This document shows positions 1,701-64,000 of a DNA stretch of 64,000 nt, piece after piece. The DNA is from Tricholoma matsutake (Eukaryota > Basidiomycota > Agaricomycetes > Agaricales > Tricholomataceae), in the NCBI GenBank assembly GCA_026075535.2, contig AP026539.1, positions 2,232,001-2,296,000 of the forward strand. Direction: 5' to 3'. The translations under genes and the position numbers were made by a program. Position 1 is the stretch's first letter; every line of letters starts with the position of its first letter. The notes below the pieces were generated by a model. The model did no database searches and was not told the origin of the DNA. It saw only the letters and a list, made by a program, of their open reading frames with translations.

Positions 1701-1735
1701 TCACCCCCTCTCTAAGATGCATCGCCCCGATGCAT

Positions 1736-2368: not shown

Positions 2369-2377
2369 GCGTGGATG

Positions 2378-6883: not shown

Positions 6884-6893
6884 AGAGTTTTCT
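6884..6893 (-). promoter_or_regulatory. Self-primer binding site (Gypsy A)
   Basis: Minus-strand AGAAAACTCT lies 2 nt inside the 5' LTR (the LTR edge is 6896). It is perfectly complementary to AGAGTTTTCT inside the same LTR (positions 6997-7006). I inferred self-priming from this and from the lack of any obvious tRNA 3'-end match. Confidence 0.7.
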
Positions 6894-6895
6894 AC

Positions 6896-8570: not shown

Positions 8571-8591
8571 TCACTGCTGGGGCTGGGTGCT

Positions 8592-8981: not shown

Positions 8982-9189
8982 CACGAAAAGATACATCAAC
9001 TGCCCCACTCATTGCGTCGATGATTGCGCAATGAGTGACTCCCATGGGGACTCACTCAATGGGTATGGGCATGATGGATGCTCAGAGGGTCACTCATGCA
9101 ATAACATCCAGCAGCTTGGTCTTATCAGTAAAATTTGCAGTTGTATTTTGTATGTAACTGGTCGGCTACTACTTGGAAGAACTTGAAAA

Positions 9190-12100: not shown

Positions 12101-12350
12101 AACTAGCGTCGTCGCAGAGTAGAAAAGAACAAGGGGAAAGGATAGCCTCTGAAAAGTGAGCCACAACTTGCCTGGCGCCGAAGGGGATGGATAACATCTT
12201 GTAGATGTAGTCCCAAACTCAATGCATATCAGCATGAGGCTTGCATATACTGGAACTGGCAGAACTACTGTGACGTTCTCCTTGCGGTGCTCAACGCTCA
12301 ATGGTGTGAGGGGTTTGAAGGAGTTGTGACAGCCATTGCCAGATTGTTGA
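9190..12350 (+). repeat. Satellite array, forward orientation (left arm)
   Basis: Diverged copies of a ~250-bp unit recur here, in places separated by other DNA. Clear unit starts are near 9200, 9369, 9731, 9948, 11699 and 12170. A typical unit begins GCCTGGCGCCGAAGGGGATG, passes through GGTCCCAAACTCAATGCATA and GGCAGAACTACCGTGACGTT, and ends CAATGGTGTGAGGGGTTTGA. There are two subtypes, one with GATGGATAACAGCTTGTAGA and one with TCTCGATAACACCTTGTAGA. No coding function is visible. Confidence 0.85.
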
Positions 12351-12456
12351 ACACTGAGGGATGAGGGAGGGATGATTGATGATTGATGATGAGTGATGTC
12401 AATGAGCATATCCGATGTCTAACCGGCCCTAAAGACTTGGGCAAATTTGTATAGTT

Positions 12457-14025: not shown

Positions 14026-14206
14026 TATGAGTTCCAATTCAACACTCAATTCTCGTCTTTTTTCCACTTCCCGTTTACTCAGCATCCAAGGCTATGACCA
14101 CCTGCTGCTAGTCGATGATATGCTTTGTTTCAATCTGCCCCGATTTCGCCCACATTCAGGTTGACTGGTGGCTGTTGGGCGCCATGTTTAGGAACTGTGG
14201 TCTCCT

Positions 14207-19329: not shown

Positions 19330-19988
19330 CATGAGTTGCCTGGTGCCGAAGGGGATGGATAACAGCATGTAGATGTTGGTCCCAAACTCAATGCATACAG
19401 CGTGATAATTAACAACTGTTGCAGCCTCACAGTAACCAGGACTTTGTCGGTTGTATATTTGTAAGAACTGGAAATGGCAGAACTTCCATGATGTGCGACT
19501 TGCCATGCTCAATGCTCAATGGCGTGAGGGTTGCAGCGTGTTGTAACTGCCTGGACTTAGGGTTGCCTGGTGCCAAAGGGGATGGATAACAGCTTGTAGA
19601 TGAAGGTCCCAAACTGAATGTATATCAGCGTGAGGATGACTTCTTCAGGTGCAAACTTGGAAGAACCTAAAATGACATCACATGAAGATCACAAGAAAAA
19701 CAAGACCTGCCTGTCGCCAAAGGGTCTCGATAACACCTTGTAGTAGACACAGGTCCCAAGCTCAACACATGTCCGTATGAGATTTGCAAACTGTTACAGC
19801 GTCACAACAAGCAGGACTTCATCATGTTTGCAAGAACTTGAGGTGGAAGAATTGTGTTCTGGTGCTCAACACTCAATGGCATGAGGGGTTTCAGTGTGCT
19901 GTAAGCGCAGGGACTTGGGACAAGAATACGACACAATCATTGTGAGAAAAACAAGAGTTGCCTGGAACCAAAGGGGATGGATAACAGC
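19330..19988 (+). repeat. Satellite units adjoining the right arm
   Basis: Forward copies of the ~250-bp unit start near 19337, 19565, 19710 and 19960, and run without a break into the right arm. The inner arm boundary at 19989 therefore lies inside a satellite unit. Confidence 0.85.
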
Positions 19989-22900
19989 TTGAAACAAAGC
20001 ATATCATCGACTAGCAGCAGGTGGTCATAGCCTTGGATGCTGAGTAAACGGGAAGTGGAAAAAAGACGAGAATTGAGTGTTGAATTGGAACTCATATCAG
20101 ATATATGAGGTGGAAGATTTGTGTTCTGGTGCTCAACGCTCAACGGCATGAAGGGTTTGAACATACTGTAATTGCCCAGTAACAATACCACACAATTATC
20201 ACAAGAAAAACAGAACCTGCTGGTTGCCAAAGAGTCTCGGTAACATCTTGTAGTAGATGCAGGTCCCAAGCTCAATGCATGTTCGCATGAGGTGGGCAAA
20301 CTGTTACAGCATCACAACAAGCAGGACTTCATACTTGCACAAACTTGAGGTAGATGTAGGTCCCAAACTCAATGCATATCAGTGTGAGGCTTGTATATCC
20401 TGGAAATGGCAGAACTACTGTGGCATTCTCCTTGCGGTGCTCAATGCTCAAGGGGTTTGAATGTACTGTAATCGCCAAGGGTAAGAATTATCACAAGAAA
20501 AACAAAACCTGCCTGTCGCCAAAGGGTCTCGATAACACCTTGTAGATGCAGGTCCCAAGCTCAACGTATGTCCACATGAGATTTGCAAACTGTTACAGTG
20601 TCACAACAAGCAGGACTTCATCATGGTTGCAAGAACTTGAGGTGGAAGATTTGTGTTCTGGTGCTCAACGCTCAATGGTGTGAGGGGTTTCAGCATGCTG
20701 TAAGTGCAGGGACTTGGGACAAGAATACGACACAATTGTCGTGAGAAAGACAAGAGTTGCCTGGCACCGAAGGGGATGGATAACAGCTTGTAGATGTTGG
20801 TACCAAACTCAATGCAGATCAGCGTGAGGCTTGCATATTAGGAAGAACTCTACTTGTGGTGCTCAACGCTCAAGGGTGTGAGGGTTTGAGCTTGCTGTAA
20901 CCGCCAGGGCTTGGGGGTGGAAGGACTACACTTGGCAAAACTTTGAATGGAAGCACCATGGTGACGTTCTACTCATGGTGCTCAATGCTCAATGGCACAG
21001 AAGGGGTTTGAATGTACTGTAACCACTGGAACATGAGTATAAGAATGCGATGCAATTATTAGAAGAAAAACAAGACTTGCCTGCTGCCCAAGTCTTGATA
21101 ACAGCAGGTCCCAAACTCAACACGTATAGTGTGATATTTAACAACTGTTGCAGCCTCACAGTAACCAGGACTTCATTGTTTGCATACTTATAAAAACTTG
21201 AGATGGCAGAACTACCGTGACGGTCTACTTGTGGTGCTCAACACTCAATGGCATGAGGGGTTTGAGTGTACTGTAATTACCAAGGGTAAGAATACCACAC
21301 AATTATCACAAGAAACACAAAACCTGCCTGTCACCAAAGGCACCTTGTAGATGCAGGTCCCAAGCTCAACGCACGTCCGCATGAGATTTGCAAACTGTTA
21401 CAGCATCACAACAAGCAGGACTTCATCATGGTTGCAAGAACTTGAGGTGGAAGAATTGTGTTCTGGTGCTCAATGCTCAACGGCGTGAGGGGTTTGAAGG
21501 AGTTGTGACAGCCGTTGCCAGATTGTTGAACACCAAGGGAAACTCAACGCATATCAGCGTGAGGCTTGCATATACTGGAACTGGCAGAACTACCGTGATG
21601 TTCTCCTTGCGGTGCTCAATGCTCAATGGTGTGAGGGGTTTGAACTTTGAAGGAGTTCTGGACAAAACTATACAAATTTGCCCAAGTCTTTAGGGCCGGT
21701 TAGACATCGGATATGCTCATTGACATCACTCATCATCAATCATCAATCATCCCTCCCTCATCCCTCAGTGTTCAACAATCTGGCAATGGCTGTCACAACT
21801 CCTTCAAACCCCTCACACCATTGAGCGTTGAGCACCGCAAGGAGAACGTCACAGTAGTTCTGCCAGTTCCAGTATATGCAAGCCTCATGCTGATATGCAT
21901 TGAGTTTGGGACTACATCTACAAGATGTTATCCATCCCCTTCGGCGCCAGGCAAGTTGTGGCTCACTTTTCAGAGGCTATCCTTTCCCCTTGTTCTTTTC
22001 TACTCTGCGACGACGCTAGTTTACTTTGTTGAATTTGCCTCTGGTTATTAGTGGATGATATCTGCTGGGGGAGATTATCAGCTTTGGTTATGTCTGACTA
22101 CGTGGTAAGTCAGTTTATCTTTGCTCAGCAAGCTGTTTCTCATTATCTCCTCCAGTTTCAATGACTACTATGGATCTGCTCTTGTTTTTCTTGCAAAGAC
22201 TGTCATATTCTTACTCTGAAGTCCCAGCGGTCATAGCACGTGCAAATCCCTCATGCCATTGAGCATTGAGTACTGCAAGTTGAACGTCACAGTGGTACTT
22301 CCAAGTATGCAATGTATGAAGTCCTGCTTAGCTGCAACAATTTGCAAAAACCTCACGCTGATATGCGTTGAGTTTGGGACCTACATCTGCAAGCTGGTAT
22401 CCATCCCCTTTCACGCCAGGCAACCAGTGTTTTTCTTGTGACGATTGTGTCATATTCTCCATGTCATACCCACTGGCGATTTGACTGGCTTTCTAGGTGC
22501 CCTCATTGGCACCTGTTCTTTTCTACTTTTGATGAGTTTGCCTCTTGGTTGCTAGTCTGGTTATCTGCTGGGGGCGATTATTAGTTATGGGTTATGTCTG
22601 ACTATGTGGTAAGTCAGTTCATATTTGCTCAGCAAGCTGTTTCTCATTATCTCCTCCAGGTGCAATGACTGCTATTGATCCCCTTTGGTGGCAGGCAACT
22701 CGTGTTTTTCTTGGGATGATTGTGTTGCATTCCTACTCCCCAGCTCTGGCCATCACAGCATTCTCAAACCCCTCATGCTGTCTGCGTTTATGTCAGGTTT
22801 TTCAACCGAAGATTTCCGAATTCCTACCAACAGATTCAGACAATCACGGGATCAAAACCTTATGCTGATGTGTTGAGTTTAGTGCATTGATCCACAATGT

Positions 22901-25551
22901 TTTTGACTTGCTGTTTACATCTTATATCTCAGTCCCCATCTCACTTGGCATTGGGCACTGTAAGACATATGATGTTGGTGTTGGATGAAGTTTGTTGTGG
23001 CTGAATCAGTGGAGTCCACTGCGCATGGCATGTTAGCGCTCCTGGTGATGCTCAGGTGGCGGAAGCTGAGTGTGTGTGATATATCCTCAGCGTAGAGTAT
23101 GCCGGTGCACGCCTCTGCGTAGAGTCCTACTGCATACCTATTGACTTCCACTTCCATCCCAGTCTGAACCTGAATGCAGTGCTGCTGGGGTTGAGGAGGA
23201 GCTCCAGCTACTAAGGTGGCTGCAAATTGTTATCAAGACATAGATGTTGTTGGAGACAATGATATCATTTACCACAAGAAGGTCAATACAGAGTAAGACG
23301 ACAAGGAAGTGGGTTCTGACACAGGCATTCTTTTGCTACTTTGCCCATGATGGCAAACAAAATTGACACCCTATGTACTCCTCCCTCTCTATGTTGTCTA
23401 TGGTGGAGATACCGGGTCACAGTGACTCTCAACCTTGTCTTCCATCCGCAGGAGAGAGGGAGGATGTATGACATGCATAGGCCACCTACCATAGCCATTA
23501 ATCAGATCCTAGATGCTAATCATACTTCTTCGGTAGGAGGATAACAGAGCAATCCAATTTCATCTGCACCTGCCACTGCCACTCTAACATCCACTATAAG
23601 AATATTCCCTATGCGGAGGCAGCAGATGTCATTCCTGACTTTCACCATCAGGGATGCAGACAGGCAGCCACTCACAGGAGAGTCAGTTTCTAGTCTTGAG
23701 GTTCATAGAGAATGATGCGGTGGTTCTTAAAGAGTGGGATAAGTGTGACCATGAAGCAGAATGCACATTGGAATGCTCTGCTACTTCATCATTACCAACA
23801 GGTACATTCTGTCCCTCCAAACTAACCGCGCTATCGCATTCAAGGGCCATACCACCACTACGGTCTTCACCACCACCATATTTTGTACCATCACTGGACC
23901 CAACATTGGGACTTCCCAAAAGGCTCAACAGCCTCTGTCTATGATAGCACTAACTAACACTCAACGGAGAATATTTATCTGTCTCCCTCAAGCCACTGGA
24001 AAGTTGACAAATAAAATGCTGTGTCCCATGACTCGTACACTGGTGTCACCCATGTCTATGCTCGCCAAATTGTTGATGGCCTTGAGGTCACTGACAGTGT
24101 TTGCAAATCTCACACAGACATGCATTGAGCTTGGGACCTGCATCTACGAGGTTATCGAGACCCTTTGGCGACAGGCAGGTCTTGTTTTTCTTGTGATAAG
24201 TGTGTGGTATTCTTGCCCTCGGCGGTTACAGTACATTCAAACCCCTCACGCCGTTGAGCATTGAGCACCACATGGAGAACATCATGGTAGTTCTGCCATT
24301 TCCAGTTCTTTCCATTATGCAAGCCTCATGCTGATATGCATTGAGTATGGGTATATCTCCAAGCTGTTATCCATCCCCTTCGGCGCCAGGCAACTCTTCA
24401 TTTCAAGTTCTTCAACCTGCAACTTCATTCTTACTTGATGTGCTCAAGGACAACAAGTCTGAGCAAGGACACTTGCAAACACATTTACTGGAGATGAACC
24501 TTGTCCATGCTGCTCAGGTTGCCAACACTATTCTTGGGAATGAGATGTTCACACATTATGACCAACCTCAGATTGCCAACCTTTGCGAGACAGCTGGTTG
24601 AAACCCCTCACACCATTGAGCATTGAGCACTTGAATGTCATGCTAGTTCCATTGGTTACTGTGAGACTGCAACAGTTGTTACTTATCACGCTATATGCAT
24701 TGAGTTTGGGACCGACATCTACAAGCTGTTATCCATCCCTTTTGGCACCAGGCAACCCTAAGTCCAGGTGGTTACAACACGCTGAACCCTCATGCCATGG
24801 AGCATTGAGCACCGCATGTACAATGTCATGGTAGTTCTGCCATTTCATGCCTCACGTTGATATGTGTTGAGTTTGGTGGGACCTTCATCTACAAGCTGTT
24901 ATCCATTCCCTTCGGCACCAGGCAATTCTTCATTTTCAAGTTCTTCCAAGTAGTAGCCGACCAGTTACATACAAAATACAACTGCAAATTTTACTGATAA
25001 GACCAAGCTGCTGGATGTTATTGCATGAGTGACCCTCTGAGCATCCATCATGCCCATACCCATTGAGTGAGTCCCCATGGGAGTCACTCATTGCGCAATC
25101 ATCGACGCAATGAGTGGGGCAGTTGATGTATCTTTTCGTGTTTCCCATGGAAAAATGTTACGTGTTTTCTCGATTCGTGTTTCTCCAGGAAACACATGTA
25201 ATGTTTCCGAAGCGTATTTCTGATACATAAACTATAAGGTTTTTCAACAGACACATGCATGGATCCTTGATACATTTATTTCTTAGGAACATGGTAAGAA
25301 AAATGTAACAAATTTTTAAAGTAAACAATATGGAAACACTTTCCATTTTTTCTACCTGTTTCTTAGAGAAAAATTCTTGGATAAATGTCTGATTTTTTAA
25401 ATTAAAACAGCTGACAAACATGATTTATGTTTTTAAGATTTCACCTGTGAATACTTTCTACATATTTCTCATGGAAACATGGATCAGAAATCTCAAAACA
25501 CACATCCTGATCCATGTTTCCAGAGGAAACAGCACCCAGCCCCAGCAGTGA
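19989..25551 (-). repeat. Right arm of giant inverted repeat (5,563 bp)
   Basis: This is the reverse complement of 8571-14133 with constant coordinate sum 34122. All mirrored ORFs in the two arms translate identically. It contains a forward satellite array from 19989 to about 21665, a junction at about 21666-21772, a reverse array to about 24930, and the mirrored palindrome cluster at 25141-25530. Its outer end touches the start of a DDE transposase pseudogene. Confidence 0.95.
25141..25530. repeat. Cluster of GTTTCC-N3-GGAAAC palindromes (right arm end)
   Basis: This is the mirror of 8592-8981 in the other arm, with the same five or six short inverted repeats. Confidence 0.65.
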
Positions 25552-25559
25552 CATAAGGG

Positions 25560-34233: not shown

Positions 34234-34392
34234 CACATAGGTAAGCTACATTGTATGGAATGATATGACCTATCAAATGCATAGATTGAATTGAATGATA
34301 TGGGTTCGATGGACACTGTCGAACTCACTATATAAAGTCACTATACTATATTAACCAACGACTACATTGTACACTGATTACTATACCTTACA

Positions 34393-35742
34393 ATAGACAT
34401 GCATTAGGAATGTAATACAGACATTAGTAATGTTTGAAATGCAATGGGCATGGACATGGGCATGGGAGCGGCCACAGACATGGGGACAGCCTTGTGTATC
34501 TGTTTTGATGTATGGCATTGAACTATAGACATGCATTAGGAATGTAATATAGACATTAGTAACATCTGCAATGCAATGGGCACAGACCTGGCCACAGATA
34601 TGGGCACAGCCACTGACACAGCCACTGACATGGGCATGGGGGCGGCCACGGACATGGGGGCAGCCTTGTATATCTGTTTTGATGTATGCTGTTGAACTAT
34701 AGACATGCATTAGGAATGTAATACAGACATTAGTAACATTTGAATGCAATGGGCACAGACCTGGCCATGGATACGGACACAGCCACAGACATGGGCACAG
34801 ACATGGGGATGGCCTTGTATATCTGTTTTGATGTATGCCGTCAAACTATAGACATGCATTAGGAATGTAATACAGACATTAGTAACATTTGAAATGCAAC
34901 AGGCACAGACATGGCCATGGATATGGACACAGCCATGGACACAGCCACGGGAACAGGCACAGACATGGGGACAGCCTTGTATATCTGTTTTGATGTATGC
35001 CGTCAAACTATAGACATGCATTAGGAATGTAATACAGACATTAGTAACATTTGAAATGCAACAGGCACAGACATGGACATGGATACAGACACAGCCATGG
35101 ACACAGCCATGGGAATGGGCACAGACATGGGGATGGCCTTGTATATCTGTTTTGATGTATGCCATCAAACTATAGACATGCATTAGGAATGTAATACAGA
35201 CATTAGTAACATTTGAAATGCAACAGGCACAGACATGGCCACAGATACTGACACAGCCATGGTAATGGGCATGGACATGGGCACGGACATGGGGACGGCC
35301 TTGTATATCTGTTTTGATGTATGCCATTGAACTATGACATGCATTAGGAATGTAATACATACATTAGTAACATTTGAGATGCAATGGGCACAGGCATGGC
35401 CACGGATACGGACACAGCCACTGACACAGCCACTGACACCGCCATGGGAATGGCCACAGCCATGGAAACAGCCAAGGACATGGGGATGGACATGGGGTTG
35501 GCCTTGTATAGCTGTTTCAATGTATGCCGTTGAACTAAGGCTGCTCCTGTGTCTCTGGGCACTCCCATGTCTCTGGCTGCTCCCATCTCTGTGGCTGCTC
35601 CCTTTTTGTGGCCCCTCCCATTTCTCTGTCTGCTCCTGTTTCTCTGATTATTATACCTTACAATAGACCTGCATTAGGAGTGTAATACAGACATTAGTAA
35701 CATTTGAAATGCAATGGGCACAGACACAGGGGGCCGGCCAGG
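34393..35742 (-). repeat. Left array of ~150-bp units (eight copies)
   Basis: The marker CATTAGGAATGTAATACAGA recurs eight times. Spacings measured on ATTAGT are 132, 174, 149, 162, 162, 161 and 330 bp; the two odd values each carry a visible 1-nt deletion, so the original spacings are multiples of 6. The variable part is built from GACACAGCCATG-like hexamer words. Long minus-strand ORFs (34710-35360 and 34381-34749) result from this periodicity and encode a repeated Cys/His-rich sequence. Confidence 0.9.
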
Positions 35743-36479
35743 GCATCGCCATCGAGCACAGACATGGGAATGGGCAATATTAACCTATGCATACTATTCA
35801 CTGTACACATAGTATATCTGTTTTGATGTATGCCATTGAACTAAGGCTGCTGCCATGTCTCTGGCTGCTCCCATTTCTCTGTCTGCTCCCATTTCTCTGT
35901 CCGCTCCCATTTCTCTGTCCGCTCCCATGTCTTGTCTATCCCAACTGACATTATGATCAATTTGCAGTCTGGCAACATGACAGCTTGGCCATCCTACCTG
36001 GTGGCCTGTAACCAGCTCATCCTACCTGCCAATCCAGTTAGTGTCATCCTCATTTGTATTTCTACATTAGTTCTTCCTGTTGCAGGACTTGATAGACAGG
36101 GACTTGTTGAGCTGCCATGCTGAAGTGAAGGCCCTTCAAGATTGAGAACATATGCCACTTTGAAGGAAAGGGTTGAAAATAAGTCGAAATCATTCAAAAG
36201 GAGGTTCTCAAAGATTATGCCATCATCCCACTCAGATGCTATGGACAATCCCCCTGCCAATTCCCAGTGATGTGGAAGGATAATTAATACCTTACTCATA
36301 ATATATACATCTATGTAGCTTTTGTCTGTATTCTGTTCTTAATGCACATCATTGTAGTAATATCATTGTTTTTGTGGTCCTGTCAAGCCCCGATGTCAGT
36401 CCTACTTCCCCATTCCCATTCCCATTCCCATACCCATACCCATCCCCTTCCCCTGCAATTGCACTAAAAACATCTGTGG

Positions 36480-37330
36480 CTGTGTCCATGGCTGTGTCTG
36501 TATCCGTGGCCATGTCTGTGCCTGTTGCATTTCAAATGTTACTAATGTCTGTATTACATTCCTAATGCATGTCTATAGTTCAATGGCATACATCAAAACA
36601 GATATACAAGGCCATCCCTGTGTCCATGGCTGCTCCCATGCCCATGTCAGTCGCTGTGTCCATGGCTGTGTCCATATCCATGGCCATGTCTGTGCCCATT
36701 GCATTTCAAATGTTACTAATGTTTGTATTACATTCCTAATGCATGTCTACAGTTTGATGGCATACATCAAAACAGATATACAAGGCCATCCCTGTGTCCA
36801 TGCCCATTCCCATGGCTGTGTCAGTATCTGTGGCCATGTCTGTGCACATTGCATTTCAAATGTTGCTAATGTCTGTATTACATTCCTAATGCATGTCTAT
36901 AGTTCAATGGCATACATCAAAACAGATATACAAGGCCATCCCCATGTCCAGGGCTGTGTCTGTGGCTGTGTCCATATCTGTGGCCAGGTCTGTGCCCATT
37001 GCATTTCAAATGTTACTAATGTCTGTATTACATTCCTAATGCATGTCTATAGTTCAATGGCATACATCAAAACAGATATACAAGGCCATCCCCATGTCCA
37101 GGGCTGTGTCTGTGGCTGTGTCCATATCTGTGGCCAGGTCTGTGCCCATTGCATTTCAAATGTTACTAATGTCTGCATTACATTCCTAATGCATGTCTAT
37201 AGTTCAATGGCATACATCAAAACAGATATACAAGGCCATCCCGGTGTCCATGGCCACTCCCATGCCCATTGCATTTCAAACATTAGTAATGTCTGTATTA
37301 CATTCCTAATACATGTCTATTGTAAGGTAT
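36480..37330 (+). repeat. Right array of ~150-bp units (six copies)
   Basis: This is the same unit as the left array, in opposite orientation. Starts at 36541, 36715, 36865, 37015, 37165 and 37285 give spacings of 174, 150, 150, 150 and 120 bp, all multiples of 6. The plus-strand frame 36565-37332 stays open for 255 codons as a consequence. Coding function is possible but not supported by any known domain. Confidence 0.9.
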
Positions 37331-37469
37331 AGTAATCAGTGTACAATGTAGTCATTGGTTAATGACTTTATATAGTGAGTTCAACAGCGTCCATCGAACC
37401 CATATCATTCAATACAATGTATGTGTTTGATAGGTTGTATCATTCGATACAATGTAGCTTACCTATGTG

Positions 37470-38945
37470 GCCAACATGCCAGACCTGTGACATACCATAC
37501 CTGTTTTGGCAGTGTGATGGGTATTGACAGGTTGCTTGAATTGCCAGATACAGCCATTGCCAAACTACCAATCAACTTCAGATTTCTGGTTCCTCTTCAC
37601 CCATGGGCATTGCCCATCATAATAGTAAGTTTTTTGTTTCTTTCAACTAACTACATGTGCTCTTTTCTAGGGTACAGTGTCAGCTCAATAACAGTAAGTT
37701 GTTTATTTCTTTCAATTAACTAACTGTTTCTTTTCTCTAGAGGTTCTACCTATGTTGTAACAACAAGACAGTGCCAAGACAGCACACCCATGCCTAGGAC
37801 AATGACCCAGGACAGGACCAGGAGAACCCACCACTGAGAGCCCCTGCTCACAGGGTGGATGAGTTATAAGGGAGTGACAATGAACAGGAGATGGGGATGC
37901 AATGGACAAAGGGAGGAGAACAACAAAGAGAGGAGAACAACAAAGAGAGGAGAACAACAAAGAGAGGAGAACAACAAAGAGAGGAGAACAACAAAGAGAG
38001 GAGAACAACAAAGAGAGGAGAATGACAACCATGAGGGCAGATGATGATGATGACAAATGATGAATGACAAATGACCACCACCACAGCATGCCCATCCACC
38101 ATCACAAACAACTGTGGCCATGGGGAGCAACATCAAGGAGACCACAAAGATGGTGGGGGATGGAGATGGAGACAGAGACAGAAACTGACAAAAACAATGT
38201 GACAACAGAGAGGATGGGGAGGACAATGACTAAACCCAGAGACCTGAGGAGCAGGATACCTCCAAGGTATGCCCCCTACCCCATGGCAACTCACACTCCA
38301 TCCCTAGATGAACAATCATCACAATGTCAAAGGACATGGCCACCACCACCAAACAAATGGTGAGAAGATGAACACTGGGATGGGGCTATGAGGACAGACC
38401 CAAACCACAATACACATCATTTGGGCATTGGGTAAGTTTCTCTGTTCCTTACTTGTTTTTTTTTCTTTTATTTGACTCACTTCTATTTACATTTTATCTT
38501 ACAATGACATGACAACCCCAACCAACACCCCCAGACCTCAACACACCAACTAATGCAACCACTCCATACCCAACAGATGACAAAGATGGGCTATGAATGA
38601 CAACAGGAATGACCCATGATGGATGGGGAATGACAATGACCAATGGGGGATGACCAATGATGGGAACAGGGAAGAAAAACACAACACCCCTCCCGGGGAC
38701 TCCAAGGGCAGGAATGACAAAGGGGGGAATGACAAAGGGGGGACAACAGTAAGTGGGGCAATGTGCCTCCATCACCTGCCTCACATGAACCATGAGTTCT
38801 TTTATCTTTCATTTTTGTTGTCTGTAGTTGTATATAAGGTTGCATAGTAAATTTAGTAGAGATTATACAATTATATTTAACAATGTAGAACATGAAATAC
38901 AAAGCAAACAGAGTAAAAACCGTGGGGAATATACACGGTATCACA
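37470..38945. other. Repeat-rich DNA with intron-like modules
   Basis: GTAAGT-like starts followed by T-rich runs and TAG ends occur at about 37626-37670 and 37697-37740, and another GTAAG start occurs near 38431. The GAGCCCCTGCTCACAGGGTGGA word at 37838 and the ACAACAAGACRRYRCCAA-type segment link this locus to 26405-27365. A minisatellite is listed separately. Tandem AATGACAAAGGGGGG copies lie near 38714-38744. No gene is supportable. Confidence 0.55.
37914..38022. repeat. 17-bp minisatellite, about 6.5 copies
   Basis: AGGAGAACAACAAAGAG repeats with a period of 17 bp at 37914, 37931, 37948, 37965, 37982, 37999 and 38016. Copies are almost identical. There are no unique spacers, so it is not a CRISPR array. 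Confidence 0.95.
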
Positions 38946-44375: not shown

Positions 44376-44447
44376 TAACACCTGTGGTATTTTGTGATAG
44401 ACCATGGTAAAAACCTGTCACTGCAGTTGCAGTGTTAGGACGGGCGC

Positions 44448-44873
44448 TGTAAAGGGACTAGGGGGGTGCCCTGTGTGTGTTTCCTATTTTTTGTGTTTGT
44501 CCCATATTTTTCCCCACCTCATTTCCTTCTATTCTTCATTTTCTATGATTTTTCCAGATTTTATTACTAATTTTCCCTTGCTATCATGTTTGTATATGTT
44601 GACACTTTTATATTTAGAGGCGGAGTACCCCTTCCGACACATACCCCTTGGTATGATGTCATTTGGCGGCCTTGATCTGCCTATCTCCGCCTTTTTCTAT
44701 TTTTAGGTTATATTTGATTTTTGTCGTCTTCACATATACTGGGCATCAGCAAGGGGATCCTTAGAGTTTTCTCTTCGGATTTCCCTTTGCTAGGTGCGCC
44801 CCCAATCCCTGTATTATGTAGCATAATTTTAACTTCGGATTTCCCTTTGCTAGAGGCTTAGGTTGCCCTTATA
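44448..44873 (+). repeat. 5' LTR of Gypsy copy B
   Basis: 426 bp, from TGTAAAGGG to CCCTTATA. A TATA-like CATATACT at 44733 lies 30 bp before AGAGTTTTCT (44763-44772), the predicted RNA start. Two 21-bp direct repeats (44773-44793 and 44833-44853) lie between that start and the primer site. Confidence 0.95.
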
Positions 44874-44875
44874 GT

Positions 44876-44885
44876 AGAAAACTCT
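44876..44885 (+). promoter_or_regulatory. Self-primer binding site (Gypsy B)
   Basis: AGAAAACTCT begins 2 nt after the LTR and is perfectly complementary to AGAGTTTTCT at 44763-44772 in the LTR. Confidence 0.7.
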
Positions 44886-45039
44886 CCCCTAAGGCCCGAA
44901 AATCGCGAACGCGCTGCCCAAGATAGGCAGGTACGGACTGGACGACGCTTCCCAAAGCTCCACAGAGTCCCTACACACCGTTCCAGATACTCTCGCCTTT
45001 ATTGCGCCGCCATTTTCACCAAATGCGCTCCCTAGCGAC

Positions 45040-46158
45040 ATGGACGCATCAGAACGCTTCGACGCGCTTGAAAGCGACGTTTCCGGAATGCGCGCGCAAA
45101 TCGACTCGCTTAAATCTACGATTGAAAACTTCGTTAGGACCCTCCAGGCTAACCCTACGACCAATAGTTCCCCATTTACGACTCCAAGCGCACCCAACAA
45201 CGACGTTTTGCCAAACGCGTCCACTAAGGAACGTGCCCAGATCAAACCATCCCCCCCCGCCGAATTTGATGGTGCACGTGCGCAGGGACATGCATTCCTT
45301 AATTCCTGTGAGTTATACATTAGTCTCCAGTCGCATCAATTCGTCGATGAGGCTGCAAAAATTTATTGGGCCTTCACATACATCAAATCTGAACGCGCCT
45401 ATCTCTATGTGGACCGTATCCTACGTCAAACTAAAGAACTCGGTTCTCTACCTTTCTCCACTTGGGGTGACTTTCGAGCTGAGTTCATACGCCACTTCTG
45501 CCCCCTCAATGAACGCCACCAAGCAGTGACACGACTTGAGTCATCCGCTTACCACCAGGGACGTCGATCTGTGGATGACTATATCGATGAGTTCAAGGAT
45601 TTGGTGGACATGGCAGGATATGGGAGTGGGTTACCAGTGGTGGTGAAGTTCCGACGGGGGCTCAACCAAGAAATTCAGGACCAGATTGCACAGATGTTGG
45701 AAGGGTGCCCAGCGGACAATGATATCCTTGCTTGGTATGAAGCTGCTTCACTCTGTGATGAGAACCGACTCACAAATGCGGCATTTAATGCTGCATTCCG
45801 TGCTCCGACTACCACTCATACACCCTACACCTTCAATTGAAGCCTTCCCCACCCTAACCCCATTCCTGTTCGTCAAACTCCCACACCAGCCGTCAATGTC
45901 CCGGTACCAATGGATGTTGATGCAGCCCGCAGCCGTGCACGTAAGTTGGATCTCTGCTACCATTATGGGGAACCTGGACACAGGGCTGGAGCATGTCCCC
46001 ATCATCAGGATATCCGCATGCTCACCCCCGAGGGATGAGATGAACTCCTGCAAGATTTGTTGGCGCTTGTAGATGTTGAGGAAGTGAAGGATCAAGTTGC
46101 AGAGGAGGTTAAGCTGGAAGTTGTAGAGGAGCAGGATTTTCCTATTCGCAGCGAGTGA
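45040..46158 (+). pseudogene. gag: Gag, copy B (two in-frame stops)
   Basis: Starts at the ATG of MDASERFDAL and follows the same frame as copy A Gag to the TGA at 46156-46158. In-frame TGA codons at 45838-45840 and 46036-46038 stand where copy A has CGA (Arg), so both are CpG transitions. The zinc knuckle reads CYHYGEPGHRAGAC; its second Cys has become Tyr and is therefore broken. The slippery heptamer GGATTTT is at 46134-46140. Confidence 0.9.
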
Positions 46159-49100
46159 ATCGTACGCCCTCACTGCCTGTCCATAACTGCTTTGAAGTCT
46201 TGTCAGTTGAATCCCTGGAGAATGAATCCATTTCTGTGACTGCTCCCCTCTCTGACCCTTCGAAGTTGGCTAAAGATGTACCTGCTCTCCCCATCTCTCC
46301 TTCTACTCCACGTCCCAAAATTAAATCATGGGAGCGTAAACTACCACGCAAGTATATTGTGGCATCCACTCCCTCTGCACATTCCTTAAACCTAGCCATC
46401 GAACTGCAGACGACCGACACTGGACGGATACTCGGTGTCTCTGCGCTCCTGGACTCTGGTGCGACTGGTCTCTTCATCGATTCCCATCTGGTACAACAAC
46501 ATTGTCTAAATACTCGCTCACTCTCACGTCCGATACCTGTATATAATGTGGATGGATCCCCAAATGAAGCTGGTGCCATCCGAGAGGTTGCAGACCTGGT
46601 TCTCCGTTACAAAGATCATAGTGAGCGTGCCCTTTTTGCTGTCACTCAATTAGGAAAGCAAAAGGCGATTTTGGGATATCCATGGCTTCGAGACCATAAC
46701 CCAGAGGTCGACTGGCACACTGGGGAGGTTACCATGAGCCGATGTCCATCCCGCTGTCGGACGTGTTTCACAGAAGCCAGGCAAGAATGTTGTGGACAGA
46801 AGGCGGCAATACGATGAACTCAGAAGTGTCGTGCTGGACCCCTGCCTATACCTGAAGTGGAATTGGAAGGGGTTCCTGATCTAATGCCAGACTCGGATGA
46901 TGATGATGAGGACCCAGAGGAAGTGGAGGAGGGTGATCGGATCTTCTACACTGCGATTTGCTCATCGCATGAGGTGTGTGCCACATCGAACATATCCCAA
47001 TGCCTCGCCGAGGCCTTCCACAAAAACAATGCTGCTAAATCCTCTACTAACTCCTTACTCCCTCATCTCCATGAGTTTGAAGACATGTTCTCCAAGGAGT
47101 CATTCGACTCTCTTCCTGCGTGTAAGCCATGGGATCATGCGATCGAACTCACCCCTGGCGCAACCCCTTCATCCTGCAAGGTCTATCCTCTCTCTCCGGA
47201 AGAACAACGGCAGCTTGACCAGTTCATCGATGAGCACCTGGCCTCTGGATGTATTCGACCATCGAAGTCACCCATGGCCTCTCCCTTTTTCTTTGTCAAG
47301 AAGAAGGATGGCTCACTTCGACCGGTTCAAGACTACAGAAGACTCAACAACATCATGGTCAAAAATCGCTACCCACTACCCCTCATCTCCAAACTCGTAA
47401 ACCAGCTCCATGGAGCCCGATACTTCACCAAGCTCGATGTCCGTTGGGGCTATAATAATGTGAGGATAAAGGAGGGAGATGAGTGGAAGGCAGCCTTTCA
47501 TACCAACCATGGTCTTTTTGAACCACTTGTCATGTTCTTTGGCCTTACTAATAGCCCTGCCACCTTTCAGACCATGATGAATGACATCTTCCATGACCTC
47601 ATCCTCGAAGGCATTGTCTGCATCTATCTGGACGACATCCTCATCTTCACTTGCACGGTTGAAGAGCACCGTCGCATCACGCGCCTCATCCTAGAGCGAC
47701 TTCGACGGTACAAACTCTACCTTCATCAGGACAAATGCGAGTTCTAAAGGACCAAGATCGAGTACCTCGGCCTGATTATCTCGGAGGGTCAAGTGGAGAT
47801 GGATCCTATCAAGGTAAACGGGGTCACAGCTTGGCCGACGCCCACGAACAAGAAGGAGGTGCAGTCTTTCCTGGGCTTCATCAATTTTTATCGGCGTTTT
47901 ATCAAGGATTTCTCACATCATGCACGACCGCTGTTCGACTTGACAGGAAAGGAGGCATGGAGGTGGGATAATGCACAACAGGAGGCATTTGAAAAGCTTA
48001 AGGAGATGGTCACTTCCACTCCGATCCTTACCTTTGCTGACGATTTGCGTCCTTTTCGTGTAGAAGCCAACAGTTCTGACTTTGCAATGGGCGCTGTGTT
48101 GTCTCAGCAGTCTCCGGAGGACCAGAAGTGGCATCCTGTTGTGTTCTACTCCAAAAGCCTTAGTGCTGTAGAGAGAAACTACGAGATCCACGACAAGGAG
48201 ATGTTGGCGATAATGTGTGTGCTTGAGGAGTGGCGACACTTCCTCGAGGGTGCCCAACACAAGGTGGAAATTTGGACGGATCACAAGAACCTCGAGTACT
48301 TCATGACGGCCAAGAAATTGAACCATCGTCAAGCTTGTTGGTCCCTGTATCTATCTAGATTTGACTTCTCCTTGCACCACCGTCCGGGTCGCAGCATGGG
48401 GAAGACCGATGCCCTATCCCGACGTGCAGACCATGGGGATGGCAGCGGTGACAACCAAAACATTGTGCTGTTGCAGCCAGACCTGTTCACCATTCGGGCA
48501 CTGGAAGGCATCGTACCCCAGGGCGAGGAGCGGGACATTCTACATGACATTTGTCGCGCAAACTGTAGCAGTTTACATGAGGATGTTGTCACCCGAGCTG
48601 TTAAAGAACTGAGGAAGGGATCGACCCTTTCCTTACGTGCGGCAGAGTGGGCTAAAAAGGAGGACTTGTTGTATTTCAGGGATCGCATCTATGTTCCCAA
48701 TAACCCAGACCTTCGCTGGCGCATCATATCCCAACACCATGACTCACAAATTGCTGGCCACCCCGGACGCTGGAAGACCTTGGAGCTCACCTCACGGAAC
48801 TATTGGTGGCCACAAATGTCACAGCTCATTGGTCAGTATTGTTGCACTTGTGACCTTTGCTTACACACCAAGGTCCCTCGTCGCAAGCCTATTGGTGAGC
48901 TACACCCTCTTCCTGTTCCAGAGAGTCGTTGGGATGTCGTCAGCGTCGACTTTGTGGTGGAATTGCCAGAGTCAAACGGGTTTGATGTGGTGATGTGCAC
49001 AGTTGACTCAGTGGGAAAATGCGCTCACTTCATTCCCACTCACACCACTGTCAGTGCCCTAGGTGCCGCTCGACTCTACCTCCACCACGTGTGGAAATTA

Positions 49101-50046
49101 CATGGACTTCCTGGTGCCTTCCTCTCGGATCGTGGCCCTCAGTTCATGGCAGAGTTCACTCGTGAGCTGTACCGACTCCTGGGGATCAAACTCCTCGCTT
49201 CAACTGCTTATCACCCACAAACTGATGGCCAGACGGAGTGAGTCAACCAGGAACTGGAGCAGTACATCCGCCTCTTTGTCAATGAACACCAGGACGATTG
49301 GGATGATCTCCTTCCTTTGGCTGAGTTCGGGTACAACAACCATGTCCATGCTTCCACTCAACAGACCCCTTTCCTCTTAGACACTGGATGACATCCACGC
49401 ATGGGATTTGAACCTTGCCAAACTCCCTCACACATCGAGACAGTGAATGAGTTCACAGAACGCATGAGGGATAGCTTGGAGGAGGCAAGGGCAGCCTTAG
49501 CAAAGGCGAAGGACGACATGGCGCGATTTTACAACCAATGCCACTCCCCAACCCCTCAGTACAAGGTTGGTGATCAAGTTTATCTTGACTCCAGTGACAT
49601 CTCCACTACACGTCCATCCAAGAAACTTCTTGGGACCTTTCCCCATTGTCAAGTGCATTGGAACACATGCCTATCGTCTACACCTCCCAGCCTCCATGTC
49701 CAGACTCCATCCCATCTTCCATGTCATAAAATTGCTTCCAGCTCCCCCAGATCCATTCCTGGGATGCCATTCACACCCACCACCACCACCTACAGTGATT
49801 GAGGGAGAACCCCAATATGAAGTCAAGTCAATCTTGGACAGCCGTTTGCATCGAGGAAAACTCCAGTATTTGGTACATTGGAAGGGTTATGGGTATGAGG
49901 AGAACTCATGGGTCGAAGAGTCTGACGTAAATGCCCCTCAGTTAATCAAGGAATTCCACCGACGGCACACTGCTGCACCGCGTCGCATTCAAGTCATGGA
50001 CTTTGGTCGTATACGATTTCGAATGCATCAGGGTGATGTATCTTAG
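46155..50046 (+). pseudogene. pol: Pol with chromodomain, copy B (several stops)
   Basis: The copy A pol order is present: protease (DSGATGLFI), RT (IYLDDILIF), RNase H, integrase (SVDFVVELP, FLSDRGPQFM, DGQTE) and chromodomain (LVHWKGYGYEENSWVEES). Stops in the pol frame are TGA 46815, TAA 47745, TGA 49239 and TGA 49389. A 10-bp deletion near 49626, relative to copy A, shifts the frame before the chromodomain. The integrase keeps SDRG where copy A has SDCG, so each copy preserves residues the other lost. Confidence 0.92.
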
Positions 50047-50057
50047 AGAGGGGGTGA

Positions 50058-50483
50058 TGTAAGGGGACTAGGGGGGTGCCCTGTGTGTTTTTCCTATTTT
50101 TTATGTTCGTCCCATATTTTTCCCCACCTCATTTCCTTCTATTCTTCATTTTCTATGATTTTTCCGGATTTTATTACTAATTTTCCCTTGCTATCATGTT
50201 TGTATATGTTGACACTTTTATATTTAGAGGCGGAGTACCCCTTCCGACACATACCCCTTGGTATGATGTCATTTGGCGGCCTTGATCCACCTATCTCCGC
50301 CTTTTTCTATTTTTAGGTTATATTTGATTTTTGTCGTCTTCACATATACTGGGCATCAGCAAGGGGATCCTTAGAGTTTTCTCTTCGGATTTCCCTTTGC
50401 TAGGTGCGCCCCCAATCCCTGTATTATGTAGCATAATTTTAACTTCGGATTTCCCTTTGCTAGAGGCTTAGGTTGCCCTTATA
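50058..50483 (+). repeat. 3' LTR of Gypsy copy B
   Basis: 426 bp. It differs from the 5' LTR at roughly seven positions by eye. The purine tract AGAGAGGGGGTGA (50045-50057) precedes it. Confidence 0.95.
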
Positions 50484-50488
50484 GGTGC

Positions 50489-58356: not shown

Positions 58357-58551
58357 TGTTCAACTTGACAGGAAAGGAGGCATGGAGGTGGGATAATGCA
58401 CAACAGGAGGTGTGTGAAAAGCTTAAGGAGATGGTCACTTCCACTCCCATTCTTACCTTTGCTGACAATTTGTGCCCTTTTTGTGTAGAAGCCAACAGTT
58501 CTGACTTTGCGACAAGCACTGTGTTGTATCAGCAGTCTCCGGAGGACCAGA
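58357..58551 (+). pseudogene. pol: RNase H fragment, copy C
   Basis: Matches copy A pol from about residue 593 (LFDLTGKEAWRWDNAQQEAF) to about residue 657 (QQSPEDQ), after which the element D LTR starts. Confidence 0.85.
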
Positions 58552-58913
58552 TGTTATGATTTGTCTACAGGAACCCACAAGTACAGGCACTTCATTTTTC
58601 TCATTCAACTCGACTCTCTTCCGACGGAAGACACCTTGATGCATGGTGACTCCATGCACCCGAACACACTCCCACATGCACCATGGTACAACAACCCCTT
58701 TACATGAGGTCCATGACATCAGATCCTTGACATCGGATGCCTCATGCTACACATGAAGCTTATCTCTTATTGTTCTCTGACATGCTGCGCTGCAGCACTC
58801 TGTGGCATCAGACGCCTCATGCAAGGCATGAGGCCTGTCTCTTCTATTGTTCTTTCTAATTATACTTGATAACGATCCTACATTCAGATTGGACAATAGA
58901 TATCTTCAAACCG

Positions 58914-58921
58914 TATATAAG
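58914..58921 (+). promoter_or_regulatory. TATA box of element D LTR
   Basis: TATATAAG lies 32 bp upstream of TCAGCTTGACCT (58946-58957), the stretch complementary to the primer site and so the predicted 5' end of the transcript. Confidence 0.65.
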
Positions 58922-58995
58922 CTGTAGTAATACTGTCTGTATTCCTCAGCTTGACCTAATTCAATCAACGGTCTTAAACTCAACCAGAACACTCA

Positions 58996-59206
58996 ACAAC
59001 TAAGGAAGCCCCTTAGTTGTGATACACTTGAACTCAACAGTCAGAAAGCCTCTGACTGTGATACACGAACCGATGGTGCACTCAGAAAGCCTCTGAGTAT
59101 GGACAGCTGTGATGACTTGAGGAAGTACCCAAGTGAAGGCAGAAAGCCCGATACACTAGGAAAGTCTCCTAGTGCAATACAAGACAGTTGGAAAGCCTCC
59201 AACTGT
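58996..59206 (+). repeat. Six tandem pentaloop hairpins in element D R-U5
   Basis: Stems and loops: 58996-59020 (10 bp, loop AAGCC), 59037-59059 (9 bp, AAGCC), 59080-59098 (7 bp, AAGCC), 59115-59134 (7 bp with an A bulge, AAGTA), 59154-59174 (8 bp, AAGTC) and 59184-59206 (9 bp, AAGCC). Stem sequences differ while pairing is kept. GATACAC-like words recur between hairpins. A further hairpin with a different loop (CTATA) is at 59228-59249. Confidence 0.9.
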
Positions 59207-59252
59207 AACACATGAAGCCAAGGCTGAGTTAAGGACCTATAGTCTTAACAAA

Positions 59253-59264
59253 AGGTCAAGCTGA
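59253..59264 (+). promoter_or_regulatory. Self-primer binding site, element D
   Basis: AGGTCAAGCTGA is perfectly complementary over 12 nt to TCAGCTTGACCT at 58946-58957. It lies 2 nt after the predicted LTR end. Confidence 0.75.
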
Positions 59265-59540
59265 TCTACGAAGTCCACCTACCTAGGTGCAGACACAACG
59301 TCTTTCAGACAAAGCCCAGACAGACCTCTGACAGGAGCATCGACATCAGGAAGAACCTTGTGGTATAGATACCAAGTCCGACTAGTACAATACTCAGAAT
59401 CAGCACAAAGGTGGTTCTTGAAGCGAACAGAAGACGAGGAACCAAGATACCTCACTGAAGAAGACTTCAGACTGACAAGCAAAGAAGAAACCCCAGAACG
59501 AGACCCATTCTCCTTATCCAACGACGACATCCCCGATAAC

Positions 59541-60392
59541 ATGTCTACCGAACCCACTGCATCAAACAAGGAGATTAGAATCCAAACCCCCTCTGACTTC
59601 ACAGGGGACCGAACCAGAACTGCAAAGTTCTTACAAGAAGTGAAACTCTATCTGAGAGTAAACCATGGGATCTACAACACAGATGAAAAGAAAATCATCT
59701 TCGCATTGTCGTTTATGAATGGAGGAACCGCCATGCCCTGGGCACAGACATGGGCAGAAAAGGAAGACCTAGGGACATGGTCAACCTTTGAAACAGCGCT
59801 CAAAGCAGCGTTCACCCCAATCAACGAAGCTGGCAGAGCCAGAACCAAAATGAAAACACTAAAGCAGGGACAGGACCTGGAGGATTACATTGCACAATTC
59901 CAAATCCTCCGAGAGAAGGTGGGGATCAATGACAATACTGCCCTGATTGAACTCTTCATGGATGGGTTAAACCCCAGGCTCCTTGAAAGAGTATTCAAGA
60001 TGGAAATGATCCCCACAACCCTAGAAGGGATGATCAATGCTGCCTCCAAGTACGACAGACAATGGAGGAGAGCAAAAGCGATAACTGGGAAATTACAGGA
60101 GAGCTGGGCAAAGAAGACCGCAAACTCCAAACCAAAAGAAACCCCACTAGAAATCAACTGACTCTCTGACCAGGAGAGGGTCAAACACATGAAGAAGGGG
60201 CTATGCTTTGTGTGCCACCAACCTGGGCACAGAGCAACCAAACACAAGAAAGGGGAAACAAGAACCAAGAACCAGTCATTCCCAAAGAAGAAAGGCGAAG
60301 AGGCCTACTCAAAGATCCGAGCGATCATAAAAGACCTCGATGAAGAAGACAGGACAAGGGCTCTCACTGCAATAGAGGATGAGGGTTTTTAA
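59541..60392 (+). pseudogene. gag: Gag of element D (one in-frame TGA)
   Basis: I chose the ATG at 59541 (MSTEPTASNKEI); the frame is open further upstream to at least 59358 without an ATG and still looks protein-like, so an N-terminal extension cannot be excluded. The core has the Gag motif series FLQEVKLYLRVNHG, WSTFETALKAAF, DLEDYIAQFQILREK and LFMDGLNPRLLERVF. A TGA at 60159-60161 (CGA in the presumed ancestor) precedes the nucleocapsid CFVCHQPGHRATKH, in which the last zinc ligand is His rather than Cys. It stops at TAA 60390-60392. Confidence 0.88.
60383..60389 (+). promoter_or_regulatory. Canonical -1 frameshift heptamer GGGTTTT (element D)
   Basis: In the gag frame the codons are GAG GGT TTT TAA, so G-GGT-TTT is an XXXYYYZ heptamer immediately before the stop. 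A -1 slip reads GGG TTT TTA AAG and continues open into the protease frame (MPGTTELS at 60410). A short stem, GGT-GG-CCTG with CAGG-T-ACC (60396-60421), begins 7 nt after it. Confidence 0.8.
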
Positions 60393-61835: not shown

Positions 61836-64000
61836 CAAAAGAAACTCGATGAGTTTCTCGATGAAAGCCTGGAAAAAGGATACATTCGACCATCGAAATC
61901 ACCCATGGCATCCCCATTCTTCTTTGTTGCGAAGAAGGACTCAGACACGCTATGGCCCTGCCAAGATTACAAGTACTTGAATAACGGAACGATCAAGAAC
62001 ACCTACCCACTGCCGCTGGTAGGAGACCTGTTAGACAAGCTGAGAGGGGCAAAATGGTTTACGAAATTGGACATCCGATGGGGGTATCACAACATCAGAA
62101 TCAAGGATGGAGATCAATGGAAGGCAGCCTTCAAGATGAATCAAGGGCTGTTCAAACCAACAGTGATGTTCTTTGGATTATGCAAGTCACCGGTGACCTT
62201 CCAGGCAATGATGAATGAGATATTTTGTGACATGATCAGAGAAGGATGGCTCATGATTTACATGGACAACATCCTGATATTCTCCAAGGATCAGAACAAA
62301 CACCAGGAAAGGACAAAGAGAGTACTGCAAAGACTGGTGGAAAGTGACTTATACCTGAAGCCGGAGAAGTGCAAGTTTGACGTCCACAAAGTGGAATTCT
62401 TGGGTCTAATCATCCGACCCAATGAAATTGCCATGGACAACACGAAACTGGCAGGTATACAGGATTGGCCTACCCCGACTAACGTAAAGGCAGTCAGATC
62501 CTTCCTGGGGTTTGGGAATTTCTACAGGAAATTCATTGGACGTTTCGCAGAGACAAGCAGACCACTTAATGAACTGACAAAGAAGAACAAGATGTTTGAC
62601 TGGACAACTGAATGCGAAAATGCCTTTCAGATGCTGAAAAGGAAATTCACAGAAGCACTGGTACTGCTGATGCCAGACCCAACAAAACCATTCACAATTG
62701 AATCAGACGCCTCAAAACACGCAACAGGAGGAGTGCTGAGACAAAGAGACACGAATGGAGATTGGCACCCATGCGGATATATATCACATGCATTGACACC
62801 AATGGAACGAAACTACAAAATCTATGACAGGGAACTACTCGCAATAGTACAGTCACTAGAAACCTGGAGGCACTACCTGAAGGGTTCAGAACACCCAGTA
62901 GTAATCCTCTCGGATCACAAGAACCTGACATACTTCCGAACGGCACAGAAACTAAACAGGAGACAGGCAAGATGGAGCTTATTCTTGTCAGAATTCAAAT
63001 TACAGCTTGTTCACGTGCCCAGATCTCAAATGGTGCAAAGTGATGCTTTATCACAAAGGGCTGACCACATACCGGAAGAAGACAACGACAATGAAGATAT
63101 CACAATGTTACCAGAAACGGTATTTGTGAAATTCATTGCCACTGAAATACATGACCTGCTTGCAGGGAGCATCATGAAAGATGACCTGGTGAAGAGTGCA
63201 ATCGAAGCGCTAAAGACCAAAGGAGCACCACCAATAAAGTTGGCATTAGAAGACTGGAAAATAGAGGATGGCCTTCTATTCTTCCAAAATCGATGCTATG
63301 TCCCTGACAACGGGGACATACAAAAGAAGCTGGTACAGAAATACCATGAAGGGGTAACCAGCAGACACCCAGGACAATGGCAGACAACTGAAATGGTTAG
63401 GAGGGACTACTGGTGGCCAGGAATGATGATGTACATCAAGAACTATGTTGCTGGATGCGCTACATGCCAGCAGATGAAGGTCAACACCCACCCAACGACA
63501 CCGCCCCTACAACCAATCAAATCCAAAGCAACAAGGCCATTCACAATGGTAACGACTGACTTCATAACTGACCTACTGGAGTCCGACGGTTATGATGTGC
63601 TCATGGTCGTGGTAGACCATGGGCTTATGAAGGGGGTAATTTTCATCCCTTGCAAGAAAACAATCGATGCACTGGGAGCAGCGACCCTCTATCTGGATTA
63701 CGTCTACAAATGGTTCGGCCTTCCAGACAAAATTATATCGGACAGGGACCCCAGATTCGCCTCACAGCTATTCCAAGAGTTAGGAAGATTGCTCAGAATT
63801 AAGCTGGCAATGAGTATGGCATACCACCCCCAGACCGATGGAGAAACAGAATGGGTGAATCAAGAAGTAGAAGTCTGCCTGCAGATCTTCTGCTTGAACA
63901 ACCAAGAGAAATGGAAGCACTTCCTTCCAACAGCAGAGTTCACCCACAACCAAAGGATGCACTCCACCCAGAAAAGCTCCCCATTCTATCTGATGATGGG
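61836..64000 (+). CDS. pol: RT-RNase H-integrase frame of element D (open at window edge)
   Basis: This frame is open for 721 codons with no stop before the window ends. The RT part begins FLDESLEKGYIRPSKSPMAS and has the first Asp in TKLDIRWGYHN. Its active-site box is YMDN at residues 142-145 (62259-62270) instead of YxDD, so the RT is probably dead. RNase H shows SDASKHATGGVL, ERNYKIYDRELLAI and SDHKNLTYF. The integrase shows the zinc region (YHEGVTSRHPGQW, CATCQQMK) and Asp, Asp, Glu in TTDFITDLL, ISDRDPRFAS and DGETEWVNQ. The frame start is set only by the preceding TAA and is not a real initiation site. Confidence 0.92.

Follow-up and report, generated by a model that had tools for sequence, protein, structure and literature searches.

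A hairpin array with one repeated head in the predicted self-priming leader of a Tricholoma matsutake Ty3/Gypsy retrotransposon, a candidate RNA recognition signal

The leader of a chromodomain Ty3/Gypsy retrotransposon in Tricholoma matsutake carries, enclosed by a predicted self-priming structure, an array of short hairpins that differ in their stems and share one head. We tentatively interpret this array as a multivalent RNA recognition signal in a self-primed chromovirus leader, read most likely by the element's own Gag. The anatomy of the leader, its predicted fold, the recurrence of the array across the family and the head consensus come directly from computation, and the hairpins with their head are well supported. 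Protein binding, Gag as the binder and packaging as the outcome are what we infer, and for this reason we hold the proposal as a whole at slightly less than an even chance. To our knowledge, little has been established about how self-primed retrotransposons select their own RNA. A short, repeated, sequence-defined hairpin head present in hundreds of copies is a candidate signal open to direct testing, and the range of about four to seven units among copies forms a natural series for dose effects.

Results

The array-bearing element and its insertion site

The window, a stretch of 64,000 nucleotides, lies on chromosome 2 of T. matsutake, whose genome was searched as 161,040,721 bases in 13 contigs; excerpts of PMC10211490 describe a telomere-to-telomere assembly of this species. 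The array-bearing element is about 7.5 kb long with LTRs of 699 bp, the 3' LTR lying beyond the end of the window. Its features are listed in Table 1. It is inserted in the pol region of a marY1-like element: marY1-like pol forms the 3' flank, and the 5' neighbourhood matches up to position 58554. The flanking 5-mers, CCAGA and CCACA, suggest a target duplication with one change.

Table 1. Features of the array-bearing element in the window
Feature	Position	Strand	Basis
5' LTR (TGTTATGA ... CTTAACA)	58552..59250	+	BLASTN against the same element's 3' LTR (L011), and 3' LTR/host junction
TATATAA box	58914..58920	+	sequence; putative function from spacing, 32 nt upstream of self-primer
Self-primer TCAGCTTGACCT at predicted RNA 5' end	58946..58957	+	perfect 12-nt PBS complement; fold
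Inner closing stem, 5' side (GGTCTTAAACTC)	58970..58981	+	MFE fold
H1, 10 bp, loop AAGCC	58996..59020	+	fold, hairpin scan
H2, 9 bp, loop AAGCC	59037..59059	+	fold, hairpin scan
H3, 7 bp, loop AAGCC	59080..59098	+	fold, hairpin scan
H4, 7 bp and one bulged A, loop AAGTA	59115..59134	+	fold, hairpin scan
Degenerate unit, GGC/GCC, letters AAGCC kept, without long stem	59138..59148	+	alignment of copies
H6, 8 bp, loop AAGTC	59154..59174	+	fold, hairpin scan
H7, 9 bp, loop AAGCC	59184..59206	+	fold, hairpin scan
Inner closing stem, 3' side (GAGTTAAGGACC)	59226..59237	+	fold, pair probability, copies
Primer-binding site (PBS) AGGTCAAGCTGA	59253..59264	+	2 nt past the LTR's final CA
gag frame (Ty3_capsid, Retrotrans_gag), early stop in window copy	59265..60161	+	
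pol frame: RT, RNase H, integrase; continues past window	61836..63998	+	

The reading frames of the window copy are interrupted. Open pieces of the element match Gag (Ty3_capsid), RT, RNase H and integrase, and the protease only weakly. After the integrase core, just beyond the window (locus L191), come a Tf2-1-like SH3 domain (PF24626, 1.6e-14) and a chromodomain (PF00385, 5.7e-17), which sit in two separate open pieces. About 800 bp separate the chromodomain piece from the 3' LTR (L191:655-1449); the one reading frame checked in that interval (L191, 850-1350) had no match in Pfam. Proteins named Transposon Tf2-6 polyprotein are among the best RT matches, and close RT matches also occur in the mushrooms Lyophyllum, Moniliophthora and Sparassis.

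A predicted self-priming leader with a second closing stem

A preliminary description of this DNA had proposed a self-primer near the start of the transcript, and that layout is borne out by a perfect 12-nt complement between 58946-58957 and 59253-59264. The RNA 5' end is provisionally placed at 58946 from the TATA box. We predict an element of the Tf1/sushi self-primed type, in which the self-primer is cleaved by RNase H. The PBS is identical in 61 of the 65 sequences tallied after the LTR end, and one of the other four is plainly host DNA. Inside the array-bearing family the self-primer shows no covariation.

The 321 nt from self-primer to PBS (58946-59266) fold with an MFE of -115 kcal/mol (z = -8.8, with 0 of 100 shuffles as good). 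The primer/PBS duplex is outermost in the predicted fold, the closing stem lies inside it, and the enclosed loop holds six hairpins and weaker helices. Pair probabilities in the window copy are 0.999 for primer/PBS and 0.99 for the closing stem, and those inspected were unchanged when the first 615 nt were folded instead. The closing stem has 11 pairs as counted in the analysis and 14 in the MFE of the window copy. Neither this second closing stem nor the degenerate unit at 59138-59148 had appeared in the preliminary description. Pair 58977/59230 is A-U in 11, G-U in 55 and G-C in 10 of 76 copies. Among 64 distinct PBS-bearing copies, the MFE includes the primer/PBS duplex in all 64 and a closing stem of at least 8 pairs in 46, with the stem absent or short in 18; by these counts the closing stem is less firm than the primer duplex and the hairpins. 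Two further duplexes are expected in a Tf1/sushi layout; one was found, the closing stem, and the third was not identified.

A small CTATA-loop hairpin at the LTR end (59232-59246) also recurs, with 19 hits in 21 arrays and 36 in 39, and it competes with the closing stem for shared bases. The two could form a two-state switch, and their competition may explain the 18 of 64 folds without the closing stem.

The hairpin array and its common head

All six hairpins first noticed at 58996-59206, with stems of 7-10 bp and the loops AAGCC (four times), AAGTA and AAGTC, were found again, and their location inside the LTR between self-primer and PBS was confirmed. The array alone (211 nt) folds with z = -6.5. 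For the 321 nt from self-primer to PBS, the opposite strand also folds well (z = -6.5), because the array units are palindromes. Perfect pentaloop hairpins with stems of at least 7 bp number five, whereas 2000 dinucleotide shuffles averaged 0.022 and never gave more than 1. With stems of at least 7 and loops of 3-8, the array is the densest cluster of perfect hairpins in the window (five starts in 211 nt; three in the next best cluster outside it). The pair probability, taken at one central pair per hairpin, is 0.996-1.0. A search of 58500-59700 against Rfam gave no match up to E = 1. Loop-loop kissing through AAGCC was considered and rejected: the complement GGCTT is absent from the 615-nt leader, a weak observation with only about 0.6 occurrences expected by chance.

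The head G-R-[AAGYM]-Y-C is present in 84 of 88 pentaloop hairpins from 15 copies found automatically by the self-primer/PBS pair alone, and the remaining four deviate from it by one letter; this count covers pentaloop hairpins at or below -4.5 kcal/mol, with the recurrent LTR-end hairpin set aside. Six hand-picked copies have the head in 32 of 34 hairpins. A scan for AA-loops in 76 arrays returned 436 hairpins, 429 of them with AAGCC, AAGTA, AAGTC or AAGCA. To describe the stems, the 28 of 69 hairpin forms seen at least twice were reduced to 15 cores, some of them one pair apart. Counting from the loop, pair 2 is G-C in all 15 cores, pair 1 is A-U in 8 and G-C in 7, and pairs 3-7 vary. Because the stem is free under a fixed head, a site for a loop-reading protein is favoured over a mere spacer.

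Family size and unit number

The self-primer/PBS pair occurs at 234 places in the genome at a spacing of 282-312 nt and at a further 61 places at 313-343 nt, while reversed-pattern controls for both counts gave 0; these counts cover spacings of 282-343 nt, and the whole array was read in only part of the places. Two adjacent hairpin heads occur 1293 times in the genome (control 0). From 112 genome loci, 89 distinct leaders were obtained, of which the first 76 were aligned; four loci of that stage gave no leader. The loci came from three sources: the best 40 by similarity of 1092 candidates; a pattern containing the head, with a bias towards intact heads; and the self-primer/PBS pattern, from which 15 were taken automatically and 6 were hand-picked for an unusual-looking H1. 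All arrays are from one species.

The array consists of tandem units of about 40 nt with similar flanks, and units have been gained or lost among copies. Leader lengths cluster near 239, 272, 303 and 344 nt. In the longest type the window H1 and the common H1 occur together, making seven units, and the shortest, judged by eye, keeps four. The AA-loop scan of 76 arrays, which is blind to weak stems and to loops such as AGGTC, finds six hairpins in 60, five in 8, four in 4, three in 2 and seven in 2. MFE structures of the 64 PBS-bearing copies have AA-pentaloop hairpins numbering six in 46, five in 11, four in 5, three in 1 and seven in 1. Of 39 copies chosen by overall similarity, 34 have six AAR-loop hairpins and 5 have five; of the 15 automatic self-primer/PBS copies, 10 have six heads, 4 have five and 1 has four.

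Covariation and constraint on pairing

The preliminary description had judged selection on structure a more likely cause of the preserved pairing than simple duplication. Structural constraint is upheld. Of 4475 pair cells in the alignment of 76 copies, 97.9% are paired; shuffles average 96.6%, and none of 500 is as high. Doubly changed cells number 56, against a shuffle mean of 8.4 (again 0 of 500 as high). When the 3' partners are slid, 28-43% of cells are paired and at most 5 are doubly changed. Nine of 61 pairs are changed on both sides, a number reached by 14 of 500 shuffles; further pair types, at 37, are not above shuffles (342 of 500). The opposition to duplication has to be given up, duplication not being an alternative to constraint. 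At least one 'compensatory' change, in H1 between the window and the common type, turned out to involve two different hairpins, as shown by L054-type copies, which have both. Some of the apparent covariation reflects unit duplication, loss or conversion and not point compensation.

On a tree built from the non-stem columns of 89 sequences, changes common to several copies keep the pair in 25 cases and break it in 7, compared with 37 and 42 for private changes (p = 0.003). Leaving out H1 and H2, which paralogy or conversion could affect most, gives 15:7 for shared and 24:32 for private changes (p = 0.077). G-U against A-C stands at 14:4 among shared changes and 30:29 among private ones (p = 0.058), and this G-U excess points to the sense RNA as the constrained strand. 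RNAalifold on the 76 copies supports the structure in part: H2, H3, the closing stem and most of H6 are returned, but H1 and H7 are reduced to three pairs each, another small helix takes the place of H4, and a competing helix appears at columns 122-126/181-185. Covariation contributes only -1.87 of the -47.2, and the PBS lies outside that alignment. With CpG columns removed, diversity is lowest in loops (0.038), followed by the closing stem (0.046), the hairpin stems (0.061) and the spacers (0.086). Much of the variation among spacers is CpG decay, and for that reason stem conservation relative to spacers was dropped as a main argument.

Predicted self-primed relatives that lack the array

Two Gypsy elements of about 6.05 kb with LTRs of about 430 bp, 97% alike, lie in the window at 1272-7322 (minus strand) and 44442-50484 (plus strand). 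Both are called marY1-like, size being the only ground for identifying them with marY1, and a 10-nt inverted pair suggests that both are self-primed too. In the element at 44442-50484 this possible self-primer/PBS pair is found at 44763-44772/44876-44885, just past the LTR, with 103 nt between. Its leader lacks a hairpin array and has an unremarkable fold (z = -0.6).

Contigs filed as cyanobacterial MAGs contain two further predicted self-primed Gypsy elements (L235:206-357 and L238:128-293); these contigs are probably eukaryotic contamination of bacterial genome records. Their primer letters are unrelated but the layout is the same: the self-primer, ACTCTTGATCAA in L235 and CAGTCTCGACAA in L238, lies 128 nt and 142 nt from its complement, respectively, a TATA-like box precedes it by about 30 nt, and the PBS follows 2 nt past ...CA (LTR ends placed by eye). 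They are distant, with 39% and 42% identity in pol, and neither has the array. Among twelve distant loci in bacterial-titled contigs, none exceeds 3 perfect hairpins (7 bp or more) per 250 nt; not all 12 reach the 5' LTR, and only in L235 and L238 can the array be called absent with confidence. Searches of IMG/VR found no relatives by Gag or by RT, and the hairpin-pair pattern matched at least 120 stretches there, in line with chance.

Because predicted self-primed relatives without the array exist, the array would not be needed for self-priming; it appears to be dispensable, either an add-on to an otherwise standard leader or lost from one. In the array-bearing element, self-primer and PBS are two to three times as far apart as in L235, L238 and the marY1-like element. 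The earlier suggestion that the hairpins bring the priming segments together fits the fold. Compaction cannot be their whole purpose, however, because arrayless relatives span 103-142 nt and the conserved head needs another explanation.

Discussion

Comparison with known systems

The self-priming frame is already known, and the hairpin array inside it appears to be the new part. Excerpts of PMC10085805 and PMC4600332 describe a 'pretzel' self-priming structure of three duplexes for Tf1, Tf2, Tosmo elements and Tj1, and according to excerpts of PMC6317226 self-priming is likely common in Tf1/Sushi elements. As in those accounts, the RNA 5' end is predicted to pair with a PBS just past an LTR that ends in CA, an additional duplex is predicted between PBS-adjacent sequence and the LTR, and Pol has a Tf2-1-like SH3 domain and a chromodomain. 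Unlike the structures in these excerpts, which consist of duplexes only, the matsutake element has same-head hairpins inside the inner duplex. Excerpts of PMC10211490 and PMC10627285 give marY1 of T. matsutake as 6047 bp with a 426-bp LTR. It shares its host and its Ty3/Gypsy class with the array-bearing element but differs in size as described there (6 kb and a 426-bp LTR against about 7.5 kb and 699 bp); the DNA identity between the array-bearing and marY1-like elements is 65-66% over about 480 bp of pol. No Gypsy element with such an array turned up in the literature searched (open-licence PMC papers, partly on neighbouring topics), in agreement with the preliminary description.

The packaging signal of alphaviruses is bound by capsid. 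In excerpts of PMC8233893 it comprises 4-6 stem-loops with a conserved GGG, and is thus likewise a stem-loop array sharing one short loop sequence. The virus described there is unrelated, its signal lies in the coding region and not in an LTR leader, and its packaging function is reported, whereas for the matsutake array packaging is a conjecture.

Proposed function and alternatives

In the proposed mechanism, the 5' 12 nt of the sense RNA would pair with the PBS and the inner stem could close beneath, so that the enclosed loop would display about four to seven hairpins with free lower stems and like heads, each a G-C pair, an R-Y pair and a pentaloop AAGYM. A protein, most probably the Gag encoded by the element, would read both loop and structure and bind several heads at once, and Gag binding would lead to the choice of self RNA for particle assembly and reverse transcription. 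Units of about 40 nt would be duplicated, lost and converted, perhaps by template switching during reverse transcription, and selection would keep each unit paired. A fuller version, which we regard as doubtful, has a modular, expandable Gag-docking array, with free stems and fixed G-R-AAGYM-Y-C heads inside a Tf1-type self-priming structure, whose unit number shifts between subfamilies under packaging competition in one mushroom genome.

The usual zinc knuckle of Gag is CCHC. Four of five Gag relatives contain a complete CFxCHxxGHxxxxH knuckle, and the fifth sequence ends inside the knuckle; relatives P0003, P0006, P0012 and P0013 thus show C-x2-C-x4-H-x4-H in place of CCHC. Pfam knuckle models give hits in only two of the five relatives, both below cut-off (E 0.036 and 0.052).

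The head consensus would suit any sequence-specific RNA-binding protein, and a host protein might bind the heads to control translation, export or silencing instead of packaging. The array does sit in the 5' leader ahead of gag, where the primer/PBS and closing stems, as folded, could block scanning; upstream AUGs in the spacers nevertheless differ among copies (alignment, by eye), and we consider a host reader unlikely, though worth keeping in view. It is rather unlikely that the array is only a scaffold, a self-folding spacer with unread loops that compacts the leader so that the RNA 5' end reaches the PBS. Such a role agrees with the geometry, the hairpins occupying 131 of the 295 nt between self-primer and PBS and leaving 164 nt, near the 103-142 nt of arrayless relatives. 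Those relatives, however, are predicted to reach the PBS anyway, and compaction does not require one head (G-C, R-Y, AAGYM) in 84 of 88 hairpins.

Ordinary tandem duplication in the LTR would keep pairing if palindromic units were copied or converted whole. Units do share flanks, the two forms of H1 occur together in L054-type copies, H2 of the window type has a core identical to that of H3, and the tree contrast without H1 and H2 is not significant. Several new stem pairs nevertheless match no other unit seen: H6 CACTAGGA/TCCTAGTG to CAGTAAGA/TCTTACTG, H1 TAGG/CCTA to CAGG/CCTG, a paired G/C deletion in H4, and H1 of L227. The A-U/G-U/G-C series, moreover, is in the closing stem, which belongs to no unit, and duplication as the full account is improbable. 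We give very little credence to a role at the DNA level, through transcription-factor binding or cruciform formation in the LTR. In its favour, the DNA is palindromic and lies downstream of a promoter, and the opposite strand also folds well; against it, the stem sequences differ, the loop is asymmetric, and shared branches favour G-U over A-C (14:4, p only 0.058).

Other repeats in the window

Two 5.57-kb copies at 8568-14137 and 19985-25554 form an inverted pair, 99.9% identical and 5.8 kb apart. The region 34390-37470 consists of nested tandem repeats, with units of about 12-18 bp and about 150-485 bp, together with an inverted copy of the same repeats.
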